Source: a virus
Reading direction: 5' to 3' (one strand)
Virus record (IMG/VR): IMGVR_UViG_3300021090_000703
Location: 1 to 23,087 of that record
Length of the DNA stretch: 23,087 bases
Each line of letters starts with the position of its first letter. Positions within the stretch are counted from its first letter, which is position 1. The notes under the pieces are model-generated. The model was not told the DNA's origin and searched no databases. It saw only the letters and a program-made list of their open reading frames with translations. Of this stretch, positions 1 to 23,087 are shown one piece after another. The position numbers were made by a program, and so were the translations under genes.

Positions 1-71
1 GGCAGGGTCATCTGCTCCAAGCTCTCCACGATCTCCACCTTGTTTGCGGTGACCAATGCTAGATCGGCCAT
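1..71 (-). CDS. Putative phage coat or head protein, N-terminal fragment
   Basis: This is the start of a gene that runs off the low-coordinate end of the window; 23 codons are visible. The ATG at 71 follows an AGGAGG Shine-Dalgarno sequence with a 5-base spacer, so the start is well supported. The peptide begins MADLALVTANKVEIVESLEQ, a type of N-terminus I associate with small phage coat or head-decoration proteins. Its place directly after a scaffold-like gene is where a major capsid or coat gene is expected. A 19-bp perfect palindrome (84-102) abuts the ribosome binding site. The assignment rests on position and a short N-terminus, so a decoration protein is equally possible. Confidence 0.6.
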   Translation of the reverse strand, partial: MADLALVTANKVEIVESLEQMTL

Positions 72-83
72 AAGAACCTCCTA

Positions 84-102
84 CGTGGCGCCTGGCGCCA
101 CG
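84..102. repeat. 19-bp perfect palindrome CGTGGCGCCTGGCGCCACG
   Basis: Two 9-base arms flank a single central base. The same 19-mer, or its complement in the central base, occurs at 5218-5236 and 15203-15221. On the minus strand it ends just before the SD of the coat-like gene, so the mRNA could carry a hairpin touching the ribosome binding site. The arms are too close for a normal RNA loop, so only the outer part would pair in RNA. A protein-binding DNA site is an alternative. Confidence 0.75.
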
Positions 103-167
103 ACACTTGCACCTGAAAAAGAAGCGTTCACACTGCCGCTGCTTAGCGCGGCGTCAAGTGCAGGTGT
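103..167. repeat. Imperfect inverted repeat, long member of the ACTTGCACCTG palindromic family
   Basis: ACACTTGCACCTG (103-115) and CAAGTGCAGGTGT (155-167) pair along their full length if two G-U wobbles are allowed, with about 39 bases between them. The arms match those of the elements at 847-867 in the 22 kb region and at 868-914, so this is a family member with a longer internal segment. It fills the gap between the scaffold and coat-like genes. I see no T-run that would make it a clear terminator. Confidence 0.5.
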
Positions 168-168
168 G

Positions 169-819
169 CTAGAAAACTCGTGTGATGACAGTGTCGGCTG
201 CCTTTTGCGCTTCCTTCTTGTCATCGTCGCTGACCTTCTTTTCTTTTCCATCAGGCGTTTCGCTGTAGGTCAACGGCTTGGCGCCCAGATCCTTCGCGTG
301 CTTGGTGATGTATTCCATCGCCTCCACGGGATCCATCTTTTCGAGTAGTTCCACGATATGCTTGGGCAGATCCTTTTTTTGCGCAGCCAGGATCCCGTCC
401 AATGCTTTCTTGTACTTTTCAGCCTGATCCTCGCTTGCTTGCAAGCGTGGCTCCAGCTCGGTCTTCTGCTTCGTCAGATCGTCAATCTCAGTCTGACGGC
501 TCTCGGCCAGCTTCTGCCATTCCTGTTTATCCTTGAGCGCTTCCTCATCAGCCTTCTTTTTGGCTTTTGCGGTTTCGGCTTCGAGTTCAGCCTTAGCTTT
601 TTCGCGCTCCTTGGTGCGGGCTTCGCCAATCTTCTGATCGATGAACGCCTGCTGATCAGCACTGAATGTGATGTCGGCGACCTCTTTCTTTTTCTTTCCA
701 GCTTTCTCGGGATCTCCGCCAGCGCTGTCGTCTGTCTTTGGGTCGTCTTCCTGGGCACCACCAGAAGCATCCGGGTCTTTGTCAAAGTACAAGCATGTGC
801 GTAACCAATCGAAAAACAT
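169..819 (-). CDS. Phage scaffolding protein (GP20-like)
   Basis: The 216-residue product is highly charged. It has an acidic N-terminal part, then a long Lys/Glu/Ala-rich coiled-coil region (about residues 60-145) and a Lys-rich C-terminus. This composition, length and position before a coat-like gene fit the internal scaffolding proteins that assemble procapsids and then leave. The ATG at 819 follows GGAGGA with a short spacer. It is the first gene after a promoter and structured leader (820-1050), suggesting that scaffold and coat are expressed from their own transcript. There is no protease motif, so a fused head protease is unlikely. Scaffold families are recognised by composition more than by motifs, hence moderate certainty. 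Confidence 0.75.
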   Translation of the reverse strand: MFFDWLRTCLYFDKDPDASGGAQEDDPKTDDSAGGDPEKAGKKKKEVADITFSADQQAFIDQKIGEARTKEREKAKAELEAETAKAKKKADEEALKDKQEWQKLAESRQTEIDDLTKQKTELEPRLQASEDQAEKYKKALDGILAAQKKDLPKHIVELLEKMDPVEAMEYITKHAKDLGAKPLTYSETPDGKEKKVSDDDKKEAQKAADTVITRVF

Positions 820-3622: not shown

Positions 3623-5203
3623 CTATACCGCGTACTTGTTGAACGCCTCTTCATACTCACTATCAACACCTCTTGCCCAACAAACGAAATTATCAATGCT
3701 GCTGTCAAGGTCGAAGAAAATCAAACCCATTTTGTCGCCAGACGTTCCATGTCCGCCGAAATTTGACAGATATTGTTCGCCACCAACCAAAGCCTCGTTG
3801 TAGTAAGTACGAACCACTATTTCTGTGGTTATATCTGTGATGGCAGACATCAATCTTGAGCCATTTACCTCGGCAGGAGTTCCGGTTATGACAGTGGTTT
3901 CTACACCAGCCACACGGTTTATCAACTGCACATTTGCAGCAGTGCGCCTGACATAAACATAGTTGTCTGCATCCACATATTGCATCACCAACCCAACGCC
4001 AGTTGTTCCACGAGTCACGGCTGCTTCAAGAAGTATGCTCTCTGCACCAACGGGTACAGTACAAATTGCCCTGTCCACGCTCAACGAAGTTGCCATCGCT
4101 TTATTTCCAGAGATTTCAACCGTTCCTACCTGATTTACCCAAGCTAAACCGCTTCCACCTGATTCCTCCGAACCTCCTCCGCCTGTATTGCCCAATGCGC
4201 CATTTGCACGCGTGAAGGCATCGGAGGCGAGAGGACTGACAATAATAAGATTTTGAGGAATACGGATGAAACCTGAAGTGAACACCGCTGTTATCCCTTG
4301 TGCACCCAGGGAAGGATACACGGTGGCATCGGCTCCATTTTTATCTGGGTACAGTAATCTCCATTTCGGGAAGGCCGTTGCTTCCTTGATGAAAAAGAAT
4401 GCGCCAGTATTTCTCAACAGGATCAAGCCATATACAGTTGCTCCGGATGCGGGGTTTGCGCCAACGGTCAGCGGCACGATCGCATAGAGGAATGCACGTA
4501 CAACGCCCGTCGTGAAGAAGTTGAGCGCCTGTGACACTCCTCCAGCGGCATTAGAATCCCATCCAACAGAGTAATTGGTGTTCGTGCCTGCCAAGCGTGC
4601 GATCAACGCCTTGCCCGCAGCTCTCGCTCGACCCGGATACCATAATCCAGGATTGCCGGCTGCTGCACCTCCTGTTGCAAAGTCGGCGACTCCAGAGCCA
4701 ATGGATAATTTTGAGTTGGTGTCCGTGGCGGTGCGTGTCTGCCCAGTCGGGGTTGCCGTTGTGCCGTTCACTGCACCAGGAGCTACCGTGTCGGTGAATT
4801 CATCAGCAAGATCAAAGGCGCTTGACACTACAACCAGTTGTGTCGCGGCTGTATTGCCATTGCCCACCATATCGTGAAAAGCGTTGGCGGCTATGTCAAA
4901 GGTCATCGTCCCATTTGGCGAAGCAGGCATGCCTTCGCAGGTGTAAGCAGTTCCAGACCCTCCGAAATTGGCAATCGTTCCGCCGCCAACACCAACAGCA
5001 CCAGAAGCGAAATCTAATGATGGTTTGCTGAGTGTGAACGTGATAGCAAGGGGCAGGGTTGCGTTTGGACTTCCACCTATTACGGCAATTGTCACGGTCG
5101 GCGCGGTGGTGTCTTGCTTCATCCGCGCTCGTCGTTTCTTCCAAAAGACAACATCTCTCCACAACTTTTGGAACAATGCTCTACTTTTGTCGTTTTTCGC
5201 CAT
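3623..5203 (-). CDS. Putative virion surface protein, Ig-like plus jelly-roll domains
   Basis: The 526-residue product begins with a basic segment, then a bacterial Ig-like domain (about residues 30-120) with the pattern LPLAITFTLSKP, GGTIANFGGSGTAY and ending DMVGNGN. Two regions starting DEFTDTVAPG (about 150) and SDAFTRANGALGN (about 325) look like concanavalin/LamG-type beta jelly-rolls. These folds are common in phage proteins that bind carbohydrate on the host surface or decorate capsids. ATG 5203 follows GGAAGGAAGG. It is unusual to find this between large terminase and portal, and the gene seems more AT-rich than its neighbours, so it may be a late insertion. There is no signal peptide, which favours a virion part over a secreted protein. 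Tail fibre is an alternative. Confidence 0.6.
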   Translation of the reverse strand: MAKNDKSRALFQKLWRDVVFWKKRRARMKQDTTAPTVTIAVIGGSPNATLPLAITFTLSKPSLDFASGAVGVGGGTIANFGGSGTAYTCEGMPASPNGTMTFDIAANAFHDMVGNGNTAATQLVVVSSAFDLADEFTDTVAPGAVNGTTATPTGQTRTATDTNSKLSIGSGVADFATGGAAAGNPGLWYPGRARAAGKALIARLAGTNTNYSVGWDSNAAGGVSQALNFFTTGVVRAFLYAIVPLTVGANPASGATVYGLILLRNTGAFFFIKEATAFPKWRLLYPDKNGADATVYPSLGAQGITAVFTSGFIRIPQNLIIVSPLASDAFTRANGALGNTGGGGSEESGGSGLAWVNQVGTVEISGNKAMATSLSVDRAICTVPVGAESILLEAAVTRGTTGVGLVMQYVDADNYVYVRRTAANVQLINRVAGVETTVITGTPAEVNGSRLMSAITDITTEIVVRTYYNEALVGGEQYLSNFGGHGTSGDKMGLIFFDLDSSIDNFVCWARGVDSEYEEAFNKYAV

Positions 5204-5217
5204 GCTTTCCTTCCTTC

Positions 5218-5236
5218 CGTGGCGCCAGGCGCCACG
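5218..5236. repeat. 19-bp perfect palindrome CGTGGCGCCAGGCGCCACG
   Basis: This is identical to 84-102 apart from the central base, which is complementary on reading. It fills most of the 37-base gap between the terminase stop and the Ig-type gene start. As at 84-102, on the minus strand it runs straight into the SD (GAAGGAAGG) of the next gene. Confidence 0.75.
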
Positions 5237-5240
5237 TCAA

Positions 5241-6800
5241 TCAAGATTTCCTGCCGAGGCGGAGTTTCCACCCCTCGGCCAATAAGTTCTCCAGGTACAA
5301 GATCCCCATACTGAACGCATCCTGCGGATCATCGATCTTGGTGCCCGGCCACTTGAACAGCAGCTCTTCGAAGTCATACAGCCAGGGCACAGATTCATCG
5401 GGCATCGGGAGCCATACACAATCTCGCTCACACCACTGGCTGGCTCGCCGGCCACGTTCGGTCTTGCTGACCGTACCTGGGTTGAACTCCATCATGAAGT
5501 CGACCAGTTCCGGCAGCACACCCTGGCGGATGGTTTGGAGCACTGCGATGCCGCTGCCTTTGTCTTCAACCACTGTGCCGCGCAGCTTGCCGTCATAGTT
5601 CCAGCGCAGCGTGTTGTCGATCACGTCCTTCGTGATCTGCGGCACCTGCATTCGTTCCCACCAGGCTTCCCGCAACAGGATATGGTAGTCTCGTGTGAGC
5701 TCTAACACGATGCGGGCATTCGTATCGTTCTGCTCTTTGTCTTTGAACGCCGTGTCATAAAACAACCAGCGCGCAATGCTGCGGTTAAATATGCTGCGAT
5801 CGCTCGGGTCATAGCGGTTCTTGCCATCGAACCATTTGCGCAGAAAGATCGCACCACCAGCTGGGGCAGGGCGCTGCTGCAGCTGACCGGCCGTGCCGCG
5901 CTCACCCAGATCGGCCTCCATCGCATCGAGGGCGGGTTCATCGATGTGCTCTGGCCACAACAGCTCACCTGGCGTCGTGCGTGGATCTTCCAGGCCAATA
6001 CTCGTAAAGATACGCTTCGGCTCATACCGTGCCGGCAAACACAACAGCTCATACTGGTGCGCCTTGGCGTCATTCTTCATACGATCGAGCACGTGGCCAG
6101 GCAGGTCATCTTCGTGCAAGCGCTGGCCAATGATCAGGCGCCTGGCGGTCTTCGGGTCATTGGCACGGGTCGAGAGGGAGTTATCCCATACCTCATTAAC
6201 CTTGTTGCGCTCGACATCACTATCTGCATCCTGAGACTTCAGCGCATCATCGACCACAATGAAGTCGCCGCCTTCACCGGTGACCTGGCTGTCCATACCG
6301 AATCCCATGCGCAAGCCGGTCTTGTCGTTCTCATAGCGACTCTTCTCATTCTGGTCACCAGTCAGCTGGAAGATCTCACCGAAGCGTTCCTGATACCAGT
6401 CCGACTGCAGAATGCGCCGGCTCTTCAGCGTATCGCGCACAGCCAGCTTCAGCGAATAGGAGCCCGTGATCCAGCGGCTCGAGGGCATGCTCAGCCACAC
6501 CCATGTCGGCCAGATCACACAGGATTGCAGGCTCTTCATGTGCCGCGGCGGGATATTGATGATAAGGTTCTGGATCTGGAGCAGCGTGAGCGCCACCAGA
6601 TATTCACTGATCAGTCCAATATGCCAGTTATAAATAAAGGGGATGGCGGGCTCGACGACCTTCCACGCTTCCTGAACGTAGAAGCTAAGACTCCGAGTCA
6701 GCCTCTCCGCTTCGATTTCCTTCTTGGAAGGCAGTGTCATAATCACGTTGGGCGCGTTCAATGACTTCTGCCGCTTGCTGGAGGATGTCAAGATCGTCAT
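5241..6800 (-). CDS. terL: Terminase large subunit
   Basis: The product (519 residues from ATG 6800) is the packaging motor ATPase and nuclease. The N-terminal ATPase shows the terminase-type Walker A PPRHMKS (84-90) and Walker B DFIVVDD (179-185). The C-terminal RNase H-like nuclease shows acidic residues in FYDTAFK (D349), VVEDKGSG (E412/D413) and DDPQDAFSMG near the end. Length is normal. The start is uncertain: ATG 6800 overlaps the small terminase gene by 116 bases, and ATG 6740 (499 residues) by 56; neither has a clear SD. Upstream lies the small subunit, and downstream an unexpected Ig-type gene precedes the portal. Confidence 0.93.
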   Translation of the reverse strand: MTILTSSSKRQKSLNAPNVIMTLPSKKEIEAERLTRSLSFYVQEAWKVVEPAIPFIYNWHIGLISEYLVALTLLQIQNLIINIPPRHMKSLQSCVIWPTWVWLSMPSSRWITGSYSLKLAVRDTLKSRRILQSDWYQERFGEIFQLTGDQNEKSRYENDKTGLRMGFGMDSQVTGEGGDFIVVDDALKSQDADSDVERNKVNEVWDNSLSTRANDPKTARRLIIGQRLHEDDLPGHVLDRMKNDAKAHQYELLCLPARYEPKRIFTSIGLEDPRTTPGELLWPEHIDEPALDAMEADLGERGTAGQLQQRPAPAGGAIFLRKWFDGKNRYDPSDRSIFNRSIARWLFYDTAFKDKEQNDTNARIVLELTRDYHILLREAWWERMQVPQITKDVIDNTLRWNYDGKLRGTVVEDKGSGIAVLQTIRQGVLPELVDFMMEFNPGTVSKTERGRRASQWCERDCVWLPMPDESVPWLYDFEELLFKWPGTKIDDPQDAFSMGILYLENLLAEGWKLRLGRKS

Positions 6801-7404: not shown

Positions 7405-8714
7405 CCGCGCTCCAATCGCTTCGGCTCGATCCCCGTCGCATCGCAGAACCGTTCCAAAGCCACAGCCACAAACGCGGGCTCGATCTCTGAGGCGTATACA
7501 AGCCGGCCCTCCTGCTGGCCAGCCAGGACCTGGGACCCGGACCCACAGAAGGGCTCCAGACAGATCTCGCCAGGCTTGGTATGGTTGCGCATCGGCCGTG
7601 CGAAGATCTCCACCGGCTTCTCCGTGGGGTGCAGCGCTTTGCTGTTGCGCTTCTTGCCCTGCCAATCCAACAACCAGACATCGGATCCCTGATGCAATTC
7701 CGCGAGGATCGTCTCCAGCTCCCCCTCCCACACCGTGGATTCTTTCCCATCAAAGAAGCGTTTCCGTAGAAACGGCTTGTTACCTTTTGGCCAGCCGAAC
7801 AGGCACGGCTCGTGCTGATAGTAGTAGGTGGCAAAGCCAAGGATAAACACTGGCTTCACCCAGATGATCTCCTGATGTACCAGGATCCCACAGTCGGCCA
7901 TGGCTTGCTCAAACAGCGCGCGCGTCGCGCTCGCATGCCAGATGAACCAGGCTGCATTCGGTTTCTGGTACGGCTGCCAGGTCTGGAAGACCGTCGTCAG
8001 AAAGGCCTGCTTATCCTGGATGGTGCTCTCTTTGTATTTCCTGCTCCAATCCTTCCCACCCCCGGGCCTGGCCGTCCCATCATAGTCCACCATATACGGC
8101 GCATCGGTCGAGAACAAGGAAGCTGGTGCGGTTTTTCGCACTAACCGCGCAACGGTCTCCGGCTTGGAGCTGTCACCACAAATTAAACGATGATCTCCCA
8201 GTTGCCATAGATCGCCGACCTTGACCCTCCATTTTTTGAGGAGTTTGTCGGCCTGGTCAAACTTCGCAGGCGCATCGACCTTCTTCTTTTCCTCTTCGAA
8301 CAGCCCGTCCAGGTCGTCGTCGCTCCATCCCCAGTCCAGGAGATCGTCGGCTTTGAAGTATTTCTTGAGCAGTTCCATATCCCAATCGCCGCCCGCTTTG
8401 TTGGCCACAATATTCGCTTGCTCACATTGCTTCTTTGTCCAGCGCACCTGGCGGTAGGAATAACGCCTCCCTTCCCAGATCACATAACCCAGCCCCACAG
8501 TGCCCTGCTTGTCCGGCCGGCTGGATTTATGCTCGATGCTGATCTTGCACTTGTTGATGTCGATCACTTTGCTACGCTGGTTGCCGCCAATGATCTCGTC
8601 GGAGTTGAGGTCATGCACGATACCACTTAGATCGCCCAGCTCGCGCAGCCACGTCGCCAGGTCCTGCAATTGGCTCTCTGTGATCGTGCGTGGATTTTTT
8701 GAATATCGTTTCAT
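7401..8714 (-). CDS. ParB-like domain plus DNA methyltransferase
   Basis: The 437-residue product has a short ParB/Srx-like N-terminal part (SGIVHDLNSDEIIGGNQRSKV, about 29-50) and an amino-methyltransferase domain of the beta arrangement. The catalytic motif IV reads TDAPY (203-207) where DPPY is usual. HPTEKP (362-367) and the AdoMet-binding FCGSGS (389-394) follow. It would methylate adenine N6 or cytosine N4 in DNA, perhaps to protect phage DNA from host restriction. No restriction endonuclease is next to it. The ATG at 8714 has no clear SD. Its stop overlaps the small terminase start. The DAPY change may alter activity but may be normal in this subfamily. Confidence 0.88.
   Translation of the reverse strand: MKRYSKNPRTITESQLQDLATWLRELGDLSGIVHDLNSDEIIGGNQRSKVIDINKCKISIEHKSSRPDKQGTVGLGYVIWEGRRYSYRQVRWTKKQCEQANIVANKAGGDWDMELLKKYFKADDLLDWGWSDDDLDGLFEEEKKKVDAPAKFDQADKLLKKWRVKVGDLWQLGDHRLICGDSSKPETVARLVRKTAPASLFSTDAPYMVDYDGTARPGGGKDWSRKYKESTIQDKQAFLTTVFQTWQPYQKPNAAWFIWHASATRALFEQAMADCGILVHQEIIWVKPVFILGFATYYYQHEPCLFGWPKGNKPFLRKRFFDGKESTVWEGELETILAELHQGSDVWLLDWQGKKRNSKALHPTEKPVEIFARPMRNHTKPGEICLEPFCGSGSQVLAGQQEGRLVYASEIEPAFVAVALERFCDATGIEPKRLERG
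8126..8141. repeat. GTGCG-N6-CGCAC site inside the methyltransferase gene
   Basis: This inverted repeat has 5-base arms and a T-rich spacer. On the minus strand it reads GTGCGAAAAACCGCAC, close to the three sites in the replication initiator gene (consensus GTGCGGAAAANCGCAC). It may be a stray binding site for the same protein, or chance. Confidence 0.4.
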
Positions 8715-9445: not shown

Positions 9446-9482
9446 GGGAATCTCCTTATGTGGTAGGGGATGGCTGCCAACT

Positions 9483-9511
9483 CACCTGCACTGCGCGCAG
9501 GCGCACGTGTA
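9483..9511. repeat. Short palindromic element without central core
   Basis: The plus strand reads CACCTGCACT, then GCGCGCAGGCGCACGTGTA. It matches the reverse complement of 868-914 after removal of the GATTTGC...GCAAATC core. The inner CTGCGCGCAG (9491-9500) is a perfect palindrome. It lies in the leader of the holin-like gene, between the conserved hairpin and the SD. Confidence 0.5.
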
Positions 9512-9613
9512 AAAGAAAACACCTGGCCACCAGCGATCCCAGACGGATACGCTGTGGCCAGGTGGGTAAACTGGCAAATCCCTCATAGATGCGCCACGCC
9601 GGCGCAATTGACT
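9511..9613 (-). ncRNA. Structured leader RNA, copy B (upstream of holin-like gene)
   Basis: This is homologous to 916-1014. The first hairpin (9591-9605) is a perfect GCGCC/GGCGC stem. The main hairpin (9520-9564) has stem CACCUGGCCAC/GUGGCCAGGUG plus an inner AGCG/CGCU stem. It differs from copy A by paired changes. Here the hairpin is followed by UUUUCUUUU (9511-9519), so it resembles an intrinsic terminator placed in the leader before the gene. That suggests attenuation that is relieved under some condition, or an antitermination site. Confidence 0.7.
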
Positions 9614-9619
9614 TTTTAC

Positions 9620-9649
9620 ATTATAGCACGCTCATACGGAGCCAAGCAT
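9620..9649 (-). promoter_or_regulatory. Extended -10 promoter for the holin-like gene
   Basis: TGCTATAAT on the minus strand (TATAAT at 9620-9625) is an extended -10 identical to that of the scaffold promoter. The -35 is weak: TGCTTG at a 17-base spacing is the best candidate. Transcription would start near 9613. Confidence 0.7.
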
Positions 9650-14812: not shown

Positions 14813-16777
14813 TCATCTCCTCAAAGAACTCAACACTTTCAACCGGTTGATCTCATCCTGATTGACTCGATATCGGCCGTCATTGTCCAGCGCCAACAAA
14901 CCCACCAGCCGTGCGGCCCTGCAGGCGGCCGTCAAACGCGAAAGCGTTCGACTTCCAGTGAGCCCGCGGCCTTCCATAATCTCTTTGGGACTCAAAGGCG
15001 CCATCCAACAATAGCGAATCACCTGCGTGATGTAATTGCCGATATCCGGTCCCACGCTCTTCTGTGCCTGCAGGACCTTGGCGGCTACAGCTGGCAAGGC
15101 CAGGGCTGCGGCGATATCATCCTTCGGCTTCTCCTGGCTCAGTGACAGACCAGACGACGCGCGCGCGACCACGCGCCTTCTGCTCTGTGCTTCAGGTTTG
15201 GCCGTGGCGCCTGGCGCCACGTTTCCCACCTGGATGAATTCGATATCTACCTCGCCTGCGAGCTCCGCCTCGACCCCGAAGACACGGCCGCGATACTTCG
15301 CCGCTTCCTCCGGAGTGAAGACCGTAATGAACTCGCCTTCGAACTCGCCATGCAATAATCTTCCGACTCGCTGCGCGAACTGCTCACGTGCGGACCCGGC
15401 GCCGGCCACCTCGATCACCAGGCGCAGATCCGTCAGAGAGATCCCGCGATCACCCACGCGACTGACCACGCACACCTCGCTCTCTTCGAGCTTCTCGAGC
15501 TTGCGCGCGGTGGCGCCGTGGATGAACGGCACATCGAGCGCGTCGGCGAGCTGCTGACCCTGCTCCAGCCAATCACAGAAGATGAGTGCCCTGCCCCTCC
15601 GCCTGGCCACCAGGCTCTTGACATAGGAAGTCTTTGCTGCATCATTCGGGACCGTGGCCACGATGATGCGTGGGCGGCGCAATACGCCGGCCTTGATCAT
15701 CTCGGACCATCTAATGGCTACAGGAAACCCGCTCAAGGCGACGATCAAATGCTGACGGTCATCCTCGCGCCAGGCTGTGCCCGTGAGCCCAAGTCGGTAC
15801 TTCGTCTTGATGAACGCCAACTTCGAGAACGTGTTCGCCGGCAGGCGCTGCGCCTCATCCGGGATGATCAAATCCCATTCTTCCTTCAGATACTTCTGCG
15901 CGCCCTGGTACGTTGACAGAGTGACATCGGCATTCGGCGCGAACTTCTTCAGCCGATCACGCCATTGATCAATGAGCATGGTGGTGTCAGCTAACAGCAG
16001 CACGCGGCCGCGGAAGTGGTTGAGGATCGCACACGTGGTCAGTGTCTTGCCGGACCCGGGTGGATAGTTGATCAACACCGCTCCTTTATGTACGAATTCA
16101 TTGATCGCACGCTCGATGTAATCGGCGCCGGCTTCCCTCTGCTTTTTGTCGATGATCTCAGTCAGTAGAGCGGGATATTCGACATCATCTTTCCAATGTT
16201 CATTGGCCACCGGCGTCGGTGCATAAGGCAGGATCCCATCACGGACCAGCGCGGCGACCAGCTTGATCCATGCATCGCCGCCTTTGATCTTGAATGAGCC
16301 ATCGGCCTGCATCGATCCGAGATGCCTGCCATACTTGCGCTTGAAGCTAGCGCCGTCGCCCTCTGTTAATTGCAAGCTGGTGCGCGTCCCGTCGATCACA
16401 GCTTTATGCTCTGGCGGCTTCCAGCCCAGCTCCTGCTTCATCCAGCCGGGCAGCGGTGTGAGCAGGTCCATTGAGCGAGTTACGCGCGCCTTGATGAATG
16501 CCGGCTCCTGGGCAACGACCCAACCAAAGATCGGCATCTTGACGCCGCGCCAATGAATGAGCCAGGCTTCATGTTCATTGATTGGCAGGAGCGTGTATGG
16601 CCTGGTCAGCGTCGCGCGGATCGCCTCCGGATCCAACTCAATGCCCTGATCGACTCGCAAGTATTGAGCGATCTCCAGCGCTGCGGACTCGCGGAACTCC
16701 GTCAGGTCCTTGATGGCCTGGTCGAGCACTTGCACTGCAGTCTGTGCGCCTTCGAAGACAGTCCCCAAAGTTTTCAT
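14813..16777 (-). CDS. SF2 DNA/RNA helicase (DEAD/ResIII type)
   Basis: The 654-residue product has an N-terminal region of about 215 residues without clear motifs, then a superfamily 2 helicase core: Walker A PPGSGKT (239-245), DEAQ box (307-310), motif III LTGT (331-334), and motif VI REQFAQRVGRLLHG. The layout is like RAD25/ResIII helicases. It would unwind DNA for replication or recombination. The C-terminal region (from about 590) looks like a winged helix. A palindromic element (15203-15221) is read in frame as VAPGAT in a poorly structured linker, so it adds residues without breaking the core. The SD is only purine-rich (GGGAAAGAG). Confidence 0.92.
   Translation of the reverse strand: MKTLGTVFEGAQTAVQVLDQAIKDLTEFRESAALEIAQYLRVDQGIELDPEAIRATLTRPYTLLPINEHEAWLIHWRGVKMPIFGWVVAQEPAFIKARVTRSMDLLTPLPGWMKQELGWKPPEHKAVIDGTRTSLQLTEGDGASFKRKYGRHLGSMQADGSFKIKGGDAWIKLVAALVRDGILPYAPTPVANEHWKDDVEYPALLTEIIDKKQREAGADYIERAINEFVHKGAVLINYPPGSGKTLTTCAILNHFRGRVLLLADTTMLIDQWRDRLKKFAPNADVTLSTYQGAQKYLKEEWDLIIPDEAQRLPANTFSKLAFIKTKYRLGLTGTAWREDDRQHLIVALSGFPVAIRWSEMIKAGVLRRPRIIVATVPNDAAKTSYVKSLVARRRGRALIFCDWLEQGQQLADALDVPFIHGATARKLEKLEESEVCVVSRVGDRGISLTDLRLVIEVAGAGSAREQFAQRVGRLLHGEFEGEFITVFTPEEAAKYRGRVFGVEAELAGEVDIEFIQVGNVAPGATAKPEAQSRRRVVARASSGLSLSQEKPKDDIAAALALPAVAAKVLQAQKSVGPDIGNYITQVIRYCWMAPLSPKEIMEGRGLTGSRTLSRLTAACRAARLVGLLALDNDGRYRVNQDEINRLKVLSSLRR
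15203..15221. repeat. 19-bp palindrome inside the helicase gene
   Basis: CGTGGCGCCTGGCGCCACG is the same sequence as 84-102. Here it is inside a coding region and is read as VAPGAT in a linker after the helicase core. This resembles in-frame palindromic elements such as those of Rickettsia, but is only inferred to be mobile. Confidence 0.7.
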
Positions 16778-21658: not shown

Positions 21659-21952
21659 TTACCTTCCTTCTACATCTGCACTCGATTTGCTTAGCAAATC
21701 GGCAGGTGCATGTGTCTCTTTCTTCTTGTTTCGTTTCACCAGCAGCGCCGCAGGTTTCCACACTGGCGCGCGCCAATCCTCGACCGGCTCCAGCCCATAC
21801 AGCTCCATGTATGCCGGCAGCAGGTGCAGCGGGATCTTGATCGCGATGCCCGGTCCAAACATCGGCAACCGGCGTGCCTTCTGCACATCCGGAGCTTCGA
21901 TCAAGACGGTCGTGGTCGTGCGCGCGCTGCCGCGAGTCCATCGCTTACTCAT
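21659..21952 (-). CDS. Hypothetical protein, 97 aa, with palindrome-encoded end
   Basis: I do not recognise this product. It begins MSKRWTRGSARTTTTVLIEA and has a central part GPGIAIKIPLHLLPAYMELYG. The final 18 or so residues (APADLLSKSSADVEGR) are encoded by the nested palindromic element at 21672-21713, which has probably replaced or extended the original end. ATG 21952 follows GGAG and overlaps the initiator stop by 8 bases. It opens the membrane module but is itself soluble. Confidence 0.65.
   Translation of the reverse strand: MSKRWTRGSARTTTTVLIEAPDVQKARRLPMFGPGIAIKIPLHLLPAYMELYGLEPVEDWRAPVWKPAALLVKRNKKKETHAPADLLSKSSADVEGR
21672..21713. repeat. Nested palindromic element with GATTTGC-TTA-GCAAATC core
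   Basis: Core arms GATTTGC (21684-21690) and GCAAATC (21694-21700) match the core at 886-902, with outer arms CTGCACT and CAGGTGCATGTG. It lies in the end of a coding gene and supplies its last residues and the sequence before its stop. Confidence 0.65.
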
Positions 21953-23087
21953 GATCGGTCTCCACGGTGGCCACCACGAACACCACGATCACGCTCCTAG
22001 CCAAGATCTCCATCAGCAAGCGCTCCACGGTGCTTCGAAGCCGGCTCTCCAGCCAATCGCGCGCATAGACATTCATCACCCCGACCGTCAAAGCGTTTCC
22101 ATCGAAACGGACCGCCTTTGTATCCCGCACCCACGTGTCGAACGATGCCCGCGGCATCTCCATCTGCAGCTGGTCAAGCACGGACCGCCAAGCCTTTCCC
22201 TCCGGGCTATCGTCTTCCGGTTCGCGTGAGAAGGCTGGGAGAAGGTGCGCGGCTTTCTCTCGATCCGGATCATGCTTCTTCTGGTAATGCACCTGGCTCT
22301 CCTCAAAGGTCATGAACCACGCTGGACACTCCATGCACGTGAAAGGGTGCTTTTCCGTGCGATGCACATCTTTCAACGCCCGCGTACCAAAACGCTCTTC
22401 GCAGTAATCGCATTCATATTTGATCAGCTTCAGGGCTTCCAGGAAATCTTCCGGCAGCACCGCCGACCACTCCTTTGCTGCCCAGAGTGGTGGGCGCTCC
22501 CCTTTCAGAAGACGGGCACGGACCAGGCCACCCGGACCATTCAGCTTGCTCTTATTCGAATACGCATAGGAGCACCAGCCTAGAACGTCGATCGGGGAAC
22601 ACTTCTCCAAGTCTTTGGATGCCACCAGATTGCCGTCGAACAGCAGATCTGTGCGGCTCAAGATCTCAATCACTCCCGGGAAAGTGCGGTTTTCCGCACT
22701 GCCATTCCCGTTAAGAGGAGGAGGAGGAGAATCTGTATTTAAGTTAATTAAAGATTCTCCTCCTCCTACTAAAGAGGAGGGAGTGCGACTTTCCGCACCA
22801 GCAGTGCGATTTTCCGCACTTGGTTCAGGGCTCACCTTTTCAATTACACTTGCACCTGGCGCAAGTGCAGGTGTCGAGCGGCTGAACGTGAACTGGACGA
22901 AGCCAGGGCGCGGATGAGATGAACGCAGCCATCCCAAGAGCTCCATATCAGCCTTCTGCTCGAAATATTGCCGGCGACTCAACTTCAGAAATGCCATCAA
23001 CTCCTCTTCATTCAAGTGAGGCGTGCGCTCGTACTTCGCCTCCCAGGCCAGGGACAGGATCCGTGTGAACGATGCCAGCAGCGCGCG
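21945..23087 (-). CDS. Replication initiator with tandem C2H2 fingers and DnaA domain I-like C-terminus (5' end outside window)
   Basis: The frame is open to the window edge (380 residues visible), so the true start is outside; a TTG at 23015 is not needed as a start. In numbering from that TTG: residues before 1 to about 47 look like a helical DNA-binding region (LNEEELMAFLKLSRRQYFEQ). A disordered linker (about 48-115) is encoded by repeat-rich DNA. Two C2H2 fingers follow: C202/C205/H218/H223 and C227/C230/H243/H248, both CX2CX12HX4H. About 274-350 resembles DnaA domain I (AWRSVLDQL, FDTWV, DWLESRL), which in DnaA contacts the DnaB helicase. The protein would open an origin and recruit host helicase. 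Its stop overlaps the next gene. Confidence 0.85.
   Translation of the reverse strand, partial: RALLASFTRILSLAWEAKYERTPHLNEEELMAFLKLSRRQYFEQKADMELLGWLRSSHPRPGFVQFTFSRSTPALAPGASVIEKVSPEPSAENRTAGAESRTPSSLVGGGESLINLNTDSPPPPLNGNGSAENRTFPGVIEILSRTDLLFDGNLVASKDLEKCSPIDVLGWCSYAYSNKSKLNGPGGLVRARLLKGERPPLWAAKEWSAVLPEDFLEALKLIKYECDYCEERFGTRALKDVHRTEKHPFTCMECPAWFMTFEESQVHYQKKHDPDREKAAHLLPAFSREPEDDSPEGKAWRSVLDQLQMEMPRASFDTWVRDTKAVRFDGNALTVGVMNVYARDWLESRLRSTVERLLMEILARSVIVVFVVATVETDHE
22683..22820. other. Candidate replication origin inside the initiator gene
   Basis: Three 16-18-bp palindromic sites (22683-22700, 22783-22798, 22803-22820) share the minus-strand form AGTGCGGAAAANCGCACT. Between the first and second lies a perfect 16-bp inverted repeat of GA/CT-rich sequence (22719-22734 and 22752-22767) around a 17-base AT-rich segment (22735-22751, only two G). 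Repeated protein-binding sites next to an AT-rich unwinding element, inside the gene of the initiator, match the lambda O layout. The peptide over this region is a low-complexity linker. Confidence 0.6.
22847..22867. repeat. Palindromic element CACTTGCACCTGGCGCAAGTG inside the initiator gene
   Basis: Seven-base arms (22847-22853, 22861-22867) surround a nearly symmetrical centre with one mismatch. It is followed by CAGGTGT, the outer arm seen in other members. It is read in frame as LAPGAS, next to the same type of peptide (VAPGAT) given by 15203-15221. Confidence 0.6.

Follow-up and report, generated by a model that had tools for sequence, protein, structure and literature searches.

A small dispersed palindrome in a tailed phage and its contact with the ribosome binding sites of two genes

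A perfect 19-bp palindrome, CGTGGCGCC-W-GGCGCCACG, with 9-bp arms around a single W centre, occurs in three exact copies in the 23,087-base IMG/VR virus record IMGVR_UViG_3300021090_000703 (54.6% GC), the whole of which is referred to here as the window. Two copies run directly into the ribosome binding site (SD) of a gene, and the third lies inside a helicase gene (Table 1). With moderate confidence, we regard the palindrome as a small dispersed hairpin repeat that occupies permissive spots and resembles REP elements in behaviour without being one, and for which any functional role is a prediction. We infer that it was copied to three places and that it survives where the DNA would be permissive, namely at two tight stop-to-SD junctions and in one variable protein linker. 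In mRNA, the palindrome would form a hairpin without a U-tract, and the copy in the coat gene gap, which appears to be old, could have been kept as a passive intercistronic hairpin acting as an mRNA boundary or in mRNA stability. The terminase, portal, scaffold-like, FtsK-like, helicase, methylase and integrase genes of the window mark its source as a tailed phage, and all of its genes were read on the minus strand.

Table 1. Palindrome copies and neighbouring features in the window.
Feature	Position	Strand	Remark
Copy 1, 19-bp perfect palindrome	84..102	.	Between scaffold gene and SD of decoration-type gene
Copy 2, 19-bp perfect palindrome	5218..5236	.	4 nt past terminase stop, touching Ig-gene SD
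Copy 3, 19-bp perfect palindrome	15203..15221	.	In frame (VAPGAT), in variable helicase linker
SD abutted by copy 1 (AGGAGG, one T before)	77..82	-	From sequence
Imperfect inverted-repeat element CACTTGCACCTG ... AAGTGCAGGTG beside copy 1	104..168	.	Absent from L052
Decoration-type head protein gene start, clipped at window end	1..72	-	Homolog of L052 4028-4444
Scaffold-like gene, upstream of copy 1	169..819	-	80.6% DNA identity to L052 over aligned bases
Ig-domain (Big_12) gene, downstream of copy 2	3623..5203	-	Between terminase and portal
Terminase large subunit, upstream of copy 2	5241..6740	-	From protein comparison
ResIII/XPB-like helicase gene, holding copy 3	14813..16777	-	From protein comparison

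An initial annotation, made from the sequence alone, had described this palindrome at two SDs, and both copies proved exact and were confirmed on minus-strand reading; the third exact copy had been missed. By its relatives, the gene that it named coat-like encodes a decoration-type protein of about 138 aa and lies immediately before the gene for the major capsid protein, an order also seen for its homolog in the relative L052. Read on the minus strand, copy 1 is GGCGCCACG-TAGGAGG-TTCTT-ATG (abutting sequence TAGGAGGTTCTT; start codon 72-70), and copy 2 lies in the arrangement TGA-TTGA-palindrome-GAAGGAAGGAAAGC-ATG, where GGCGCCACG abuts GAAGGAAGGAAAGC and the start codon is at 5203-5201. Copy 3, translated as part of the helicase ORF, has no SD nearby. 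A search of the whole window allowing up to three mismatches returned the three exact copies and no degenerate ones, against 0.04 expected by chance, and no shuffle gave three. Perfect 9-1-9 palindromes of any sequence number four, compared with a shuffle mean of 0.13 and a shuffle maximum of 2; the fourth has another sequence. By our own gene list, non-coding DNA makes up 4.5% of the window, so two of the three copies would fall there under random placement with a probability of about 0.006, a bias that tolerance and function would both explain. No target duplications were seen at the copies, nor did the other end of the Ig gene carry a second one; no mobilising enzyme for the palindrome was found, nor, for copies 2 and 3, a clean-ended pair of empty and filled sites.

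The Ig-domain gene, absent between terminase and portal in the relatives L006 and L052, looks like an acquired cargo gene, and because the terminase in these two is not followed by it, copy 2 has no orthologous site there. The helicase linker around copy 3 is poorly conserved and is not kept in L007, L008 and L009; an in-frame insertion of copy 3 relative to these helicases was considered and found undemonstrable, since the linker differs in both sequence and length. The scaffold-like gene gave no protein-family match. Between the portal and MuF-like genes of the relative L053 (10294-13588), several further genes were seen by eye, including a hexapeptide-repeat acetyltransferase-like gene.

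Beyond this phage, the exact motif with any centre was found in two other IMG/VR contigs, both times in GC-rich, coding-like sequence, and allowing CA/TG ends added one coding-like IMG/VR match. A scan of GTDB genomes returned 24 isolated single matches in unrelated taxa. These scattered single matches in GTDB and IMG/VR do not have the look of a host-wide repeat family, a reading that was therefore set aside, and they point to no host; Chloroflexota is a guess. A literature search for a phage palindrome adjoining the SDs of capsid genes found nothing.

The junction between the scaffold and decoration-type genes was compared among relatives, defined as viral contigs matched by terminase, helicase, portal, decoration and capsid protein searches. 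In the nearest relative, L052 (portal 82% identical), and the near-identical L057/L058, CATGGCGC-TG-GCGCCATG stands at the same junction, directly before GAGGAGG. Alignment with copy 1 shows that this palindrome is homologous, with A-T in place of G-C on both arms, an altered centre and one base missing from an arm; three distinct metagenome contigs belonging to one relative carry palindromes of this type. This equivalent hairpin in the closest relative indicates that the coat-gap hairpin is probably old. By a rough estimate, two random arm changes hit one pair and match about 1 time in 50. The arm-matched change in L052 suggests, from the aligned sequences, that pairing has been kept; the alternative is template-switch repair without selection, template-switch mutation at imperfect palindromes being a known process (PMC7202029).

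A palindrome of the window family is absent before the decoration-type gene in at least 11 distinct relatives (L053, L054, L060/L061, L062, L063, L064, L066, L067, L068, L084-L086 and L092), so the gap comparison that the initial annotation had proposed separates these from the L052 type with its homologous palindrome. Since most relatives have no palindrome at this junction, the hairpin is not needed there. The distance from the scaffold stop to the decoration-gene SD (AGGAG) is 1-7 nt in most relatives, with an overlap in three and 14 nt in one. The palindrome touches the SD because such junctions are only a few bases long, where a tolerated insert must abut the SD. Consequently, the identical placement at two genes, from which a function had been argued, needs little explanation, while a kept hairpin at the coat gap may still hold; a preferred insertion point next to SDs, one of the options raised at the outset, fits best in the weak form that short gaps force the contact. 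Two relatives have other structures at the junction. In L054, inspection by eye revealed a short hairpin of another sequence, GTTGCT-AAAGG-AGCAAC, whose loop holds the SD, and in L065 an unrelated inverted repeat, TTCATCATCCCC...GGGGATGATGAA, lies just before AAGGAG.

The coat-gap copy, judging from L052, may have been retained as an intercistronic hairpin. A stronger form of this idea, in which the decoration/capsid (and Ig) message has a processed 5' end that a functional intercistronic RNA hairpin marks or protects for high output, has in our estimation a real but minor chance of being correct. It draws on the stable stem right before the SD, on the homologous L052 palindrome with its changed pair at the same site and on the unrelated inverted repeat that L065 carries in the same place. 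However, the hairpin is missing from at least 11 distinct relatives that have the same gene, and copy 3 is intragenic, far from any SD. A 9-bp stem is also short for RNase III, which further weakens this explanation.

Computed tests addressed what the palindrome could do at the SDs. The hairpin alone has a predicted energy of -13.8 kcal/mol and leaves the SD outside. Removing or shuffling the palindrome left predicted SD accessibility at copy 1 the same and raised it at copy 2 and in L052; the start codon region of copy 1 was somewhat more open with the palindrome (0.45, versus 0.30 removed and 0.40 shuffled). Copies 1 and 2 have no terminator-like sites, their downstream flanks TAGGAGG and GAAGGAAGG containing no T-run, and no promoter-like sites; a terminator or promoter role at the SD-abutting copies was accordingly rejected, no such site being predicted at either. 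An Rfam search of the window gave no match.

These results also bear on the remaining explanations. It is improbable that the palindrome is the binding site of a dimeric DNA-binding protein, a putative operator or a road block of the stoperator kind that would be used at several genomic sites. Its perfect two-fold symmetry and the occurrence of exact copies only are consistent with such a site, as is a phage-encoded 148-aa protein with a weak HTH-like match (GerE/sigma-70 region 4) below curated cut-offs; nevertheless, copies 1 and 2 have no promoter-like site near them, the sites number only three, one arm base is lost in L052 and neither of two promoter-like leaders in the window holds a copy. 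A translation switch that would mask or free the SD is more doubtful still: the palindrome is in direct contact with the SD, but the SD lies outside the hairpin and its accessibility is not raised at either copy or in L052. The shared translation-control site suggested in the initial annotation is not borne out, given these accessibilities, the intragenic position of copy 3 and the lack of the hairpin in most relatives. Chance similarity or an assembly artefact, which would suit the isolated single copies in GC-rich DNA outside this phage, can practically be dismissed in view of the excess of copies over chance in a window of 54.6% GC and the homologous palindrome in three separate contigs of one relative.

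Other palindromes occur in these contigs. A second 19-bp palindrome, CGATTTGCTWAGCAAATCG, is the fourth perfect one in the window (21683-21701) and is also present at 885-903 with a centre mismatch. It was located in 17 viral stretches, and several contigs hold it twice; contig IMGVR 3300045970_000678 is among those with the palindrome and encodes a relative of the capsid protein. One of its copies abuts an SD-like sequence (L044 6378), others are inside ORFs, and in L035, L047 and L050 it adjoins other CCCTCTCCC-type inverted repeats. The CACTTGCACCTG...AAGTGCAGGTG repeats gave 12 matches in the window at up to two mismatches, versus 2.2 expected; they form inverted repeats with variable middles at 104-166, 871-914, 9483-9510 and 22847-22873, and in L048 a CACTTGCACCTG-type repeat directly precedes an SD. 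The CGATTTGC palindrome lies within the middle of CACTTGCACCTG...AAGTGCAGGTG at 871-914 and near 21683, as if nested. Four copies of a AGTGCGGTTTTCCGCACT-like hairpin were observed at 22683-22820 and 8125-8142; three are clustered and adjoin a long AGGAGGAGG...CCTCCTCCT inverted repeat. Short palindromes of varied sequence are therefore common and dispersed in these contigs, and contact with an SD is one of several locations. A broader conjecture, which we consider speculative, concerns perfect 9-1-9 palindromes of about 19 bp with several unrelated sequences: these would be minimal mobile or self-templating elements that spread through a group of uncultured phages, nest within one another and later come to serve as intercistronic hairpins in front of capsid genes.

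Two similar promoter-plus-leader regions were observed on the minus strand at 820-1030 and 9446-9629. Both contain GTGCTATAATG, a conserved AGTCAATTGC block and a long hairpin, and their RNA folds far better than shuffled sequences (z of -4.3 and -4.9, respectively), with no shuffle as good. The leader at 820-1030 is 86% identical in L052, and neither leader has an Rfam match. They are possibly a shared late-gene leader or antiterminator RNA. This duplicated, strongly structured promoter leader is a better lead than the 19-bp palindrome.

Comparison with known systems yields partial likenesses. Rickettsia palindromic elements are over 100 bp long, form sequence families and provide a palindromic insert that is tolerated in frame in a protein; they resemble copy 3 as an in-frame insert but are far longer. 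Unlike intrinsic terminators, the window hairpin has no following T-run at copies 1 and 2. Stoperators sit in small phage gene gaps, and the palindrome is likewise a short repeat in small gene gaps, although no repressor or promoter link was found for it. In cluster A mycobacteriophages, stoperators are 13-bp sites involved in transcription regulation (PMC3203893). In cluster K mycobacteriophages, the start-associated sequence (SAS) is an asymmetric repeat of 13 bp, GGGATAGGAGCCC, which contains the SD, occurs in 11-19 copies, is limited to the non-structural half of the genome and marks the same gene families across phages; extended SAS have inverted repeats just upstream, and SAS are rare outside these phages (PMC3203893). 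The likeness is that of a repeated short sequence right before the start codons of some phage genes. However, the window palindrome is a symmetric 19-mer that ends outside the SD, has three copies, two of them in the structural region, and is not placed almost exclusively at gene starts, given copy 3 inside the helicase gene; furthermore, only in the window and the L052 type does it mark the decoration gene, at least 11 distinct relatives being without it. REP/REPIN sequences, as PMC3116915 and PMC3733652 describe them, are 20-40 bp long, attain high copy numbers in the chromosomes of bacteria and in most cases bear a GTAG or CGTC tag. On that description, both are short palindromic repeats dispersed mainly between genes, but the window palindrome has 19 bp and three copies in a phage (23 kb), and its flanks share no GTAG/CGTC tag. 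Thus, in placement it is like extended SAS and in form like REP, and it lacks defining features of both.

A small dispersed hairpin repeat in permissive spots implies that apparently precise regulatory placement can follow from the compact packing of phage genes. If the coat-gap hairpin has been kept, the window and L052, set against their hairpin-less relatives, would offer a natural comparison for dispersed palindromes becoming regulatory parts of capsid operons.
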